NCBI RefSeq assembly: GCF_002494345.1
Contig: NZ_NXNI01000002.1
Location: 62,001 to 126,000, forward strand
Direction: 5' to 3'
DNA length: 64,000 nt
Source of the DNA: Natrinema ejinorense
Lineage (GTDB): Archaea; Halobacteriota; Halobacteria; Halobacteriales; Natrialbaceae
The notes under the pieces were generated by a model. It had not been told where the DNA came from, made no database searches, and was given only the letters and a program-made list of their open reading frames with translations. The position numbers and the translations under genes are program-made. Each line of letters begins with the position of its first letter. The first letter of the stretch is position 1. Below are positions 21,020 to 26,107 of the stretch, one piece after another.

Positions 21020-21523
21020 ATGAGTACGTACCGAACGATGACTTCCGCAGCGTCGCCGGCCGATATCCCCGACACGGTCATACCGCGTGATTCGCTCAGC
21101 CCGACAGCGGGGTGGTATCTGCTTACCGTCTCCCGGCTTTCCTCGCGAGGTGACCGGCAGGTTCGAACCGGCGAACTCGCCGACCGGCTGGCTATCAGTC
21201 CCGCGAGTGCGACCGAGATGGCGGGGACGCTAGCCGACGACGGACTCCTCGAGTACGAGAAGTACGCCGGCCTCGAGACGACCGCTCGAGGAACGGAGAT
21301 CGCCGAGTCGCTCGCGTGGCGACAGTGCGTCGTCACGTCCTTTTTCGATCGTCTCCTGGCGTACGAGATCGACGCTCGTACTGCGTACCGAATCGGATAC
21401 ACAGTGCCCGAAGACGGCATTCACCGGCTCCAAGAGCGGATCGACGAGCCACGCATCGAAGCCTGTCAGCGTCTTCGAGGGGACGACGACGAGTGTCTCG
21501 TGGCGACCCGTGTAGAGAGTTAA
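21020..21523 (+). CDS. DtxR/MntR-type metal-dependent regulator
   Basis: A 167-residue regulator. The winged helix (about 28-85) contains VRTGELADRLAISPASATEMAGTLADDGLLEYEKYAGLETT, read in parts, the typical DtxR recognition helix and wing. The dimerisation/metal domain (about 90-150) has CVVTSFFDRLLAYEIDA, where the usual metal ligands are only partly kept. DtxR family members repress iron or manganese genes. Six iron-box palindromes lie further along in this window, but nothing ties this gene to them directly. The protein could also serve the nearby nitric oxide reductase region. Confidence 0.75.
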   Translation: MSTYRTMTSAASPADIPDTVIPRDSLSPTAGWYLLTVSRLSSRGDRQVRTGELADRLAISPASATEMAGTLADDGLLEYEKYAGLETTARGTEIAESLAWRQCVVTSFFDRLLAYEIDARTAYRIGYTVPEDGIHRLQERIDEPRIEACQRLRGDDDECLVATRVES

Positions 21524-22456: not shown

Positions 22457-22728
22457 CGATACATCACCGACCGAAGCTGGGTCCGTCGGATCGAACGGCA
22501 CAGCAGCCCATCGTTCAGCCGCCGCGTGAAAGCGGGGAGTCTCGACCGATCGCCACAATCCATACTGAACGGTCCCGTCGCAAACACAATCTATTACCGC
22601 CGAATATGTTCCCCACTCGTCGGGCAATCAACACCGACGTGCGAGAGAGACTGCCTGCAGCTGACGGGTATACTACTATTTCACAGCTTCGAGCCCACTA
22701 GCGATGCTGAACGTGAACAGAATCGACT

Positions 22729-25700
22729 ATGGACCTCACGAACGTGTTGTCAGAGCGGCTTCCCACCGGTGGTACCGATCGAGAACGGCCGACCGATCAC
22801 CTGACGGATCGCCTCGAGACCGCGACGGAACGCAACACCGAGTTCTCGAGGAGGGTCCGGACCAGTGCCGGCGAACGTATCGCTGGTGTCCTCGGTCGGG
22901 GCGGAAACGAACGGCGGTCCTGGCGCGAGTTGGGAGATCGACTCGTCGAACGGGCCGCCACCGAATTATGCGACCGGGTTTCGGATCGTCGCCTCGACGA
23001 ACGCGGTAAGCCGGCCGACCTCGAGTCGGCCGTCGACGATCCGCTCGCGCGTGGGCTCGACTCGTTCCTGCGTCGCTACGACCTGGACGAGACTCGACTG
23101 GACGACGAGACCCTGAGCGCGATCCGAGACCGGATCGCCGCGGAGACTTCCCCGGACGAAGTGTTCCAACGGCTCGTCGCCGACGGACTGGAAGAGGCGT
23201 CGGCAGCGTCGAACTCGGATACGGGCTCGCCCTTGGAGAAGGGGATCGCCGCCGACCACGCGCTGGCGGACGCCTGCTCGCACCTCTGTGCGGAGTTGGA
23301 CGTCGAGACCGACCAGCCCCTCGAGTCCGTCGTCGGGGACCTCCTCCAGCGAGACGCCGTCGTCGTCGGCCACGCGATCGAACGAACCCTGAGGGCGGAG
23401 CTGCCACAACTGCTCGGTGAGCAGTCGGTCGACGCCGCCGGAATCGAGGACCAGTCACGGAGACGGGGAGATCGGTCGCGCGACGCAACCGAAATCGGAG
23501 CGGCACAGGGGGCCGATCGACCAGCGACCGCACTGGCGCTCGCGGCAACGATCTTCCTCTCGGACGCCGTGGCGGGCGATCGATCCCTCGCCCGTCTGCT
23601 CCCGATCTCGCCGACGCTGACTGACGGGGGGAGCGAAACCACCCTGCTCGAACGCGCCCTCCTCGAGGCATGCTCGAGTCCGCTACTCGAGACTGGGGGC
23701 GGCGTCGACCTCGACGCGCTTCGGTCCGAGTCGACCGGCTCGGTGGCGCTCGTCGCGTTGTTCGTCGCCAATCTCGTCGCGATGGGACTCGGTGCGTGGA
23801 TATCCCACGAGCGCGCACCGCCGATCCCCGACGAGATCCGGGGACCGGACGGAGAGGCGATCGTCACGGCCGAGCACGTCCAACTCGGCAAGAAGGCGTT
23901 TCAGGCCAACGGGCTCATGAACCTCGGCTCGATCCTCGGCAACGGCTCGTACTTCGGTGTCGATCTCACCGCGGACGCCCTGGCGTTGAAAGCCGAGTTC
24001 ATGCGCGAATACTACGCCCGCCAGCGAGGCGCGGACACCTTCGAGGGGCTCGCCGACGACGAGCGGGCAGCGGTCGCGGAACGCGTCGAACGGGAACTCG
24101 ACGCGGATGCGCCCGACGGATCGGTCGCCCGGTACTCCGCGGCGGAAGTCCACGCGCACCGCCGTATTCGGGATCGGTACGTCGATCGCTACCACGATGG
24201 CGCACCCGAGCGCGGGATTCCGTCGGGGTTCGTCGGCTCGGCCGACCACGCCGAGCGGATCGCCGACTTCGCGTGCTGGACGGCGTGGATGGCCCACACG
24301 AACCGGCCCGGCTCGGATCACTCCTACACGAACGACTGGCCGTACGTGCCCGCGACCGGGAACCGACGACCCACCGGGCAGGTCCTGGTCTGGAGCACGA
24401 TCAGTGTCGTCTTGCTCATCGCCGGCGGCGGTGCCGGCGTCTGGGCCTACCACTCGTTCGACTTCGCCGAACCGACGACCGAACTCGTCGACGTCCCCGC
24501 CCCCGACGCGGTCTCGATCACGCCGACTCAGTACGCCGCGGCGTGGTACGTTCCCGTCGCCGGGGCGTTGTTCGTCGCACAGACGCTCGTCGGCGCGTTG
24601 CTCGCACACTACTACGTCGAACGGACCGGCTTCTATCGCATCGGGGACGCGCTCGGGATCGACGTCGTCTCGCTGCTCCCGTTCTCGGTCGGCCGCGCCT
24701 GGCACGTCAACCTCGGCATCCTCTGGATCACGTTGCTGTGGCTCGCGGGCGGTCTCTTCCTCCCGGGGCTGTTCAGCGACCGCGATCCGCCCTGGCAGGC
24801 CGCGGGCACGACCGCACTGCTCGCCGTCCTCGTCCTCGCGACGGTCGGCGCGTTCGCGGGCGTCTGGCTCGGAACCCGCGGGAAACTCGGGTCGCCCGAG
24901 GACGGCGACCGCTGGTGGTGGTTTGGCTCCGAGGGTCTCGAGTACCTCGAGGTCGGCCGCTTCTGGAAGCTGGGACTGCTCGGTGCCTTCGCCGGCTGGA
25001 CGGGGCTGGTCCTGCGTGGCGTCCGCCAGCTGGACGAACCGGCGACCGGGTTGGGCCACTTCATGACCTACGCGGGCGGCTCGATCGCGCTCATGTTCGC
25101 CGCGAGCATGCTCTACACCCCCGAAACGAACATGGCGGTCACGGAGTTCTGGCGGTGGTGGGTCGTCCACATGTGGGTCGAAGGCGTCTTCGAGTTCTTC
25201 GTCACCGCCGTGATCTCCGCCGCTCTGGTCTCGATGGAACTCATCGAGAAAGGGGACGCCGAAACGGCGATCCTCTTCGAAGTGTTCGCGATCATGGCGG
25301 CGGGCATCGTCGGCGTCTCCCACCACTACTGGTGGGTCGGCCTCCCCGACTTCTGGGTCCCGCTCGGGACGACGTTCTCGACGCTGGAGTTCGTCCCGCT
25401 CGTGTTCGTCCTCTACCGGAGCCTCGGCGAATATCGATCCCTGCGGGCGCAGGGCGAATCCTTCCCCTACACGCTCCCGCTCCTGTTCATCCTCGGGAGC
25501 AGCGTCTGGAACTTCGTCGGCGGCGGCGTCCTCGGGTTCTTCATCAACCTGCCGGTCATCAACTACTACGAACATGGCACCTACCTGACCGTCGCTCACG
25601 CTCATACGTCGCTGTTCGGCGCGTTCGGGCTCCTCGCGCTCGGTCTCGGCGCGTACATCCTGCGCGTCGTCACGCCCGAAGCCGCGTGGGATCCGGCCTG

Positions 25701-25974
25701 GTTCCGTGGCGCGTTCTGGCTGACCAACGTCGGACTCGTGATCATGACCGTCGCGTCCCTGCTCCCGGTGGGGTTCGCCCAGCTCCGAACCGCCTATCGG
25801 GACGGGTACGACGCCGCCCGCAGCCTCGAGTTCTACGAGCGAGACCGCATTCAGACGTTGCTGTGGGCGCGAACGCTCGGCGATACGCCGATGATCCTCG
25901 GCGCGCTCGCCTTTACCGTGGGGGCGGTGCGACATCTCTACGCGGCTCGCCGGCACGTACGGACAGATCGGTAA
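22729..25974 (+). CDS. norB: Quinol-dependent nitric oxide reductase with about 335-residue N-terminal extension
   Basis: Residues from about 336 to 1081 form a normal qNOR of about 746 residues. A first helix (VALVALFVANLVAMGLGAW) is followed by a cytochrome-c-like periplasmic fold lacking haem ligands, then about twelve helices with the metal ligands HMWVEGVFEFF (near 814), HHYWWVG (near 865) and HAHTSLFGAFG (near 957). The enzyme reduces NO to N2O with quinol. Residues 1-335 are extra: acidic, mostly helical, without a signal peptide or known motif, and with no methionine between Met1 and the first qNOR helix. A GTG start near the first helix would make the extension noncoding, but the frame keeps haloarchaeal composition throughout. 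Confidence 0.85.
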   Translation: MDLTNVLSERLPTGGTDRERPTDHLTDRLETATERNTEFSRRVRTSAGERIAGVLGRGGNERRSWRELGDRLVERAATELCDRVSDRRLDERGKPADLESAVDDPLARGLDSFLRRYDLDETRLDDETLSAIRDRIAAETSPDEVFQRLVADGLEEASAASNSDTGSPLEKGIAADHALADACSHLCAELDVETDQPLESVVGDLLQRDAVVVGHAIERTLRAELPQLLGEQSVDAAGIEDQSRRRGDRSRDATEIGAAQGADRPATALALAATIFLSDAVAGDRSLARLLPISPTLTDGGSETTLLERALLEACSSPLLETGGGVDLDALRSESTGSVALVALFVANLVAMGLGAWISHERAPPIPDEIRGPDGEAIVTAEHVQLGKKAFQANGLMNLGSILGNGSYFGVDLTADALALKAEFMREYYARQRGADTFEGLADDERAAVAERVERELDADAPDGSVARYSAAEVHAHRRIRDRYVDRYHDGAPERGIPSGFVGSADHAERIADFACWTAWMAHTNRPGSDHSYTNDWPYVPATGNRRPTGQVLVWSTISVVLLIAGGGAGVWAYHSFDFAEPTTELVDVPAPDAVSITPTQYAAAWYVPVAGALFVAQTLVGALLAHYYVERTGFYRIGDALGIDVVSLLPFSVGRAWHVNLGILWITLLWLAGGLFLPGLFSDRDPPWQAAGTTALLAVLVLATVGAFAGVWLGTRGKLGSPEDGDRWWWFGSEGLEYLEVGRFWKLGLLGAFAGWTGLVLRGVRQLDEPATGLGHFMTYAGGSIALMFAASMLYTPETNMAVTEFWRWWVVHMWVEGVFEFFVTAVISAALVSMELIEKGDAETAILFEVFAIMAAGIVGVSHHYWWVGLPDFWVPLGTTFSTLEFVPLVFVLYRSLGEYRSLRAQGESFPYTLPLLFILGSSVWNFVGGGVLGFFINLPVINYYEHGTYLTVAHAHTSLFGAFGLLALGLGAYILRVVTPEAAWDPAWFRGAFWLTNVGLVIMTVASLLPVGFAQLRTAYRDGYDAARSLEFYERDRIQTLLWARTLGDTPMILGALAFTVGAVRHLYAARRHVRTDR

Positions 25975-26107
25975 GAGGGCGTCGTAGAACAATTCGAAAT
26001 GCGTTCATTTCGCCCCGTTTGGACCGAACTATCCGTTCGCCGTATGTGCGGACCGAACACCGAAGTACCAGAAAACACTTACCATCAATTAGATGATTGT
26101 TGTTTAG

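Follow-up and report, generated by a model that had tools for sequence, protein, structure and literature searches.

Does the long open frame that precedes the first transmembrane helix (TM1) of a quinol-dependent nitric oxide reductase (qNOR) in Natrinema ejinorense belong to the enzyme, and if so, what could it contribute? The gene lies in a 64,000-nucleotide stretch of DNA (the window). A preliminary description, made from the letters of this stretch, had put the N-terminal extension at about 335 residues, placed it in the cytoplasm and suggested that it could serve in regulation or in the docking of partners. Published accounts credit haloarchaea with no NO reductase other than the ordinary qNOR (PMC8400030, PMC8301774). 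Here we compared the window gene with its haloarchaeal relatives, and this comparison confirmed the extension as a real, conserved part of a long qNOR form.

Reading frame and start codon of the long qNOR gene

The features of the locus are collected in Table 1. The boundary between extension and core was placed at residue 339/340 (23745/23746), only a few residues from the earlier estimate. In this GC-rich stretch the opposite strand has open frames as well (360 aa at 22736-23818 and 769 aa at 23683-25992), so the openness of the extension frame is by itself no evidence, and the reality of the extension was judged by its conservation in orthologues. A search of 100 related genomes found the long-type qNOR in 13, and the count of extension genes rose further with profiles run against 391 haloarchaeal genomes and a scan of named genomes. 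A contig scan with the extension alone returned no matches, since conservation of its short peptide patterns is poor, but a query of extension plus TM1 worked. Altogether the extension is present in frame in at least 30 orthologues, which come from several haloarchaeal families, with hosts including Natrinema, Natronococcus, Haloterrigena, Natronoglomus and Halopiger as well as Halogranum, Halegenticoccus, Haladaptatus, Halalkalicoccus and Halococcaceae MAGs. Its length ranges from 264 to 371 aa across the orthologues, and these length changes never cost the frame. Evolution is several times faster in the extension than in the core: the dN/dS (Nei-Gojobori) of the extension was 0.34-0.60 in 11 of 12 pairs and 0.86 in the remaining pair, of MAGs, compared with 0.06-0.19 for the core. 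By these ratios the extension is under moderate purifying selection.

Table 1 Features of the long qNOR locus (positions in the window)
Feature	Position	Strand	Basis
Conserved DNA patch before the long gene, likely a promoter element	22652..22681	+	Nine aligned upstream regions; 13 invariant columns including the ATG
Long-form qNOR gene	22729..25974	+	Intact ORF of 1081 aa; ATG at 22729, stop codon at 25972-25974
N-terminal extension, residues 1-339	22729..23745	+	Kept in at least 30 orthologues; composition
Long helix close to the N-terminus, residues 21-90 (low confidence)	22789..22998	+	Extension modelled with AlphaFold2; pLDDT of this block mostly 55-67
Hallmark helical hairpin, residues 104-140, RxLxxFLRRYxLDxxRLDDxTLxAIR	23038..23148	+	AlphaFold2 and alignment
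Second conserved segment, residues 208-221, RDAVxVxHALERxL	23350..23391	+	D209 invariant; R208, A210 and E218 nearly so
Variable, probably disordered linker, residues 230-262	23416..23514	+	Gap-rich alignment; pLDDT mostly <50
qNOR core, residues 340-1081, TM1 first	23746..25971	+	PF22085 and PF00115; full-length match to 3AYF, E 1.7e-153
Arg897, where AxqNOR has the proton-channel Glu569	25417..25419	+	Alignment of long-clade and canonical members

The start codon was examined in 24 aligned genes. The ATG of residue 1 is common to 24/24, whereas any other start codon between it and TM1 is common to at most 10; the only other start codon as widely conserved is the ATG of Met352, which lies inside TM1. 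The absence of methionine between start and TM1 had been reported correctly, in-frame ATG codons before or at TM1 occurring at residues 1 and 352 only, but GTG and TTG codons do occur between them and had gone unmentioned. One of these, the GTG at residue 339 (23743), stands directly before TM1. RefSeq annotates the plasmid-borne orthologue of Natronococcus occultus (1088 residues; L141 5001-8267, NC_019976.1 121568-124834) at full length from the equivalent ATG. Translation from the GTG, with the upstream frame untranslated or part of something else, would suit the good placement of this codon in the window and the openness of the antisense frames. We consider it highly improbable, since the GTG is not conserved among the 24 aligned genes, the ATG of residue 1 is the sole conserved start codon before TM1, selection acts at the codon level within the extension, and conserved DNA lies just upstream of the far ATG. 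This upstream patch (TGCCTGCANNTGACGNGTNTACCATTAT, about 50-75 bases before the ATG) is conserved in nine genomes and may be a promoter or a regulator site of the long qNOR gene. A search upstream of the gene for the NarO-like palindrome CGAAC-N4-GTTCG gave no exact or shared site, and no RNA families were found around the gene.

A separate clade and its genomic setting

The naming of the gene as a qNOR stands, but the window gene belongs, as the preliminary description had not seen, to a clade separate from the canonical haloarchaeal qNOR, a copy of which is present in the same genome on another contig (G000:C1:3423381-3425561, L131; 54% identical core). This genome also holds two copper nitrite reductase (NirK) genes. 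Another genome of the same species (G100) has the canonical qNOR only. A maximum-likelihood tree was built from 57 cores; the 36 long-type rows all fell on one side of a single 100/100 branch and the canonical ones on the opposite side, the stem of the long-type clade being long (0.74 changes per site). Alignment with orthologues showed that the extension is shared across the long-type clade. Canonical haloarchaeal qNORs are without it: in most of them the match starts 14-62 residues from the beginning of the frame, and the longer open frames of a few showed no similarity to it. In G353 and G369, the deepest branches of the clade, the extension has diverged but keeps the hallmark hairpin (iE 4e-8 and 2.8e-4), so that one gain at the base of the clade is the simplest reading, with the extension presumably present in the common ancestor. 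Copies from family f5 and from Haloferacaceae are placed among Natrialbaceae copies in the core tree, which suggests horizontal transfer of the long-type qNOR, and at least two long-type copies are on named plasmids.

Unrelated or frame-broken DNA upstream of the core, which the earlier account had named as grounds against the extension, was found in no more than two clade members. One is G010, where the first half of the extension has given way to DNA that finishes with an AMP-forming acyl-CoA synthetase gene (L138 1794-3461), which ends about 100 bases before the surviving half and marks a gene-cutting rearrangement; the core is full length and still constrained relative to G027 (dN/dS about 0.08). 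In G328 small indels, for which sequencing error is not excluded, break the frame inside the extension, and the core is open and full length. Two further genomes (G237 and G049) hold decayed copies of both extension and core, and another (G351) holds an extension fragment. The intact cores of G010 and G328 suggest that the extension is perhaps not essential to activity, though it seems useful enough for most members to keep.

The distribution of the two forms was analyzed in the 391 genomes by a core search that scored only two candidates per genome. The long-type core was detected in 28 genomes, in 14 beside a canonical qNOR and in 14 as the sole qNOR detected. Results showed that nirK (TIGR02376) was present in 136/180 canonical-only genomes, 14/14 genomes with both forms, 4/14 long-only genomes and 56/183 genomes without qNOR, so that 10 of the 14 long-only genomes have no NirK (long-only versus canonical-only, Fisher p = 0.0005, with genomes counted as independent of relatedness). 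NirK was found in 150/194 genomes with canonical qNOR compared with 60/197 without. The canonical qNOR thus tracks NirK and the long form does not, by a statistic that ignores kinship. No partner gene next to the long qNOR is conserved across the clade, and there is no clade-wide operon. In four Natronococcus-group genomes a ric gene (ScdA/RIC-type di-iron protein; L060 11024-11899, L095 7027-7818, L097 6932-7807, L096 6902-7612) lies directly upstream in the same direction, about 190 bases off, with a universal stress protein gene beyond it. ric encodes an Fe-S repair protein tied to NO stress, and the link is confined to this one lineage. The independence from nirK and the ric neighbour point to NO removal rather than a self-contained denitrification step. 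An iron-dependent (DtxR-type) repressor gene was also seen in the window at 21020-21523, about 1.2 kb upstream of the qNOR gene, and a 'metal-dependent transcriptional regulator' is annotated upstream of the N. occultus orthologue too.

Anatomy of the extension and the core

The extension had been called acidic and helical, and both features recurred in our analysis. The window extension contains 20% Asp/Glu with a net charge of -27, and the charge ranges from -11 to -40 in the members examined. An AlphaFold2 model of the extension (17 sequences) was predicted to be all-helical, with a mean pLDDT of 54.5 and a pTM of 0.25. The model was poor outside residues 101-140, where a block pLDDT of 73-93 makes the hairpin the only well-modelled part; L110, F113, Y117, L119 and L124 are invariant in it. 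A full-length model (mean pLDDT 45.6) was left out of the fold reading. No clear transmembrane helix was found in the extension, the best 19-residue hydropathy being 1.46 at residue 265 against a usual threshold of 1.6. The alignment contains no conserved Cys or His in this region, which makes a metal, haem or redox domain unlikely. TM1 of solved qNORs enters from the cytoplasm, and by this homology the extension probably faces the cytoplasm, in agreement with the location first proposed.

Profile search and structure prediction, the checks that had been recommended, gave no known family and a confident model of residues 101-140 only. The extension had no match above the curated cut-offs in Pfam and NCBIfam, none in PHROGs, PADLOC or PDB sequences, and none at E <1 by Foldseek with the extension model. 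Its description as lacking a signal or known motif holds. Neither a stand-alone homologue nor the extension on another protein occurred among the genomes searched. Weak matches to DUF4928 and NUP160, each in one of 12 members, were below cut-off and were rejected. An internal duplication of the hairpin, plausible by eye, was also rejected (hhalign probability 11%, with no supported second HMM match). In one genome a short stretch of a PdhA-like 2-oxoacid dehydrogenase E1 alpha, DPIPRLEAFLRETGRLDDESVDAIREEVE, resembles the hallmark hairpin (E 0.003-0.006), but there is no similarity elsewhere; such an E-value is expected by chance in 391 genomes, and kinship was dismissed.

Downstream of the boundary, PF22085 (NorB cytochrome c-like) matched residues 367-539 (E 1.6e-47) and PF00115 (COX1) residues 604-1052 (E 5e-52), with no Pfam match above cut-off upstream of residue 367. 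The protein therefore joins a NorB-type cytochrome c-like ectodomain to the catalytic haem-copper subunit, the fusion that marks qNORs. The FeB ligands, three His and one Glu (H814, H865, H866 and E818), are invariant and align with those of 3AYF. H659, H957 and H959, which we take from established structures to be the haem b/b3 ligands, and E887, presumably the second active-site Glu, are likewise invariant. At the quinol site H627 and E631 are invariant and F635 nearly so, aligning in 3AYF with H328, E332 and F336 of GsqNOR, which we take to be its quinol-site residues. The translated core has no CXXCH motif for haem c, and the Cys of the ectodomain is C516 in FACWTAW. Judged by these residues, the core would be a complete quinol-dependent NO reductase. 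NO dismutase (Nod) is marked by changed FeB ligand, catalytic Glu and quinol-site residues; this identity was rejected because all of these keep the qNOR state. RefSeq lists the N. occultus orthologue as 'cbb3-type cytochrome c oxidase subunit I', which is apparently a misannotation. This identity was discarded for the long qNOR as well, NF011053 scoring 19.6 bits against a cut-off of 1080 and the core matching qNOR structures.

One position of the core departs from the canonical enzymes. Where 20/20 canonical haloarchaeal qNORs have Glu, the long-clade members have Arg (29/36) or Gln (7/36), so that the cytoplasmic-side channel Glu is missing from the clade; this Glu does not strictly define the qNOR family. 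In the qNOR of Alcaligenes xylosoxidans (AxqNOR) the corresponding Glu569 is part of the proton-channel lining on the cytoplasmic side and its mutants failed to express (PMC6713497), and the importance of the position rests on that study. Both the changed residue and the extension belong to this one clade and to one side of the membrane, which is suggestive, and only that, of a connection.

Possible role and relation to known qNORs

The earlier proposal that the extension regulates the enzyme or docks partners is still conjecture: no partner, cofactor motif or fold match emerged, and the core persists without an intact extension. The explanation to which we tentatively incline, at somewhat less than an even chance, is an accessory NO-removing qNOR form whose cytoplasmic module is non-catalytic and serves in docking or assembly. 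The long form would be a distinct, horizontally moving haloarchaeal qNOR, which would most likely serve to remove NO without depending on the NirK denitrification step of its host cell. Upstream of TM1 it would carry an acidic, all-helical, non-catalytic domain on the cytoplasmic face, translated with the enzyme. We infer an assembly or docking role from the lack of conserved chemical residues, the helical make-up and the place at the cytoplasmic mouth, where the proton channel opens; there the hairpin and the long helix would hold the qNOR dimer or a soluble partner.

A regulatory domain that gates cytoplasmic proton uptake or senses a cytoplasmic signal, sparing quinol at low NO, would sit on the very side where the Glu569 equivalent is replaced in 36/36 members. 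It is nevertheless unlikely, given that the extension alignment lacks a sensor motif and conserved ligand residues, that the channel change could have its own cause, and that the core survives a broken extension in G010 and G328. Those same two genomes, together with the fast evolution and the spread in length, would fit a loosely constrained passenger, an acidic helical segment fused once with little function of its own; we give this a low probability, because the other clade members, among them some moved between families, retain the frame, dN/dS is well below 1 in most pairs, and the hallmark residues are invariant after deep divergence. The intact active and quinol sites and the two NirK genes of the window genome could instead describe a denitrification enzyme interchangeable with the canonical one (NorZ), whose extension merely tunes membrane insertion or stability in high salt, and Asp/Glu enrichment suits the haloarchaeal cytoplasm. 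This is quite unlikely in view of the genomes with the long form only, mostly without NirK, and of the canonical qNORs that do without an extension in the same cells. Rather doubtful, too, is a bolder possibility, in which the helical domain and a remodelled proton channel would act together and NO reduction would be gated or coupled, for example to a soluble partner, differently from every studied qNOR.

Our comparison shows two qNOR forms in haloarchaea, a canonical one tracking NirK and a long one, often plasmid-borne, that does not track it and carries a new and probably cytoplasmic domain. Databases may misname the long form, as in the one RefSeq case, and surveys of denitrification and N2O may then miss or misassign it. 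The clade also offers a natural test of how a haem-copper enzyme is affected by an additional cytoplasmic domain and an altered proton channel.

Compared with known systems, the long form is a qNOR with an addition and one altered site. Canonical haloarchaeal NorZ shares the core architecture (53-60% identity across about 730 residues) and the catalytic residues, but it starts near TM1, keeps the channel Glu and co-occurs with NirK. The best solved relative of the core is the qNOR of Geobacillus stearothermophilus (3AYF), which agrees with it in the FeB, haem and quinol-site residues; its 800-residue chain matches from residue 26, with no domain before TM1 and with Glu at the channel position. 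AxqNOR, a dimeric enzyme with a cytoplasmic proton channel (PMC6713497), aligns with the core over its whole length (6QQ5), from residue 11, and has Glu569 where the long clade has Arg or Gln.
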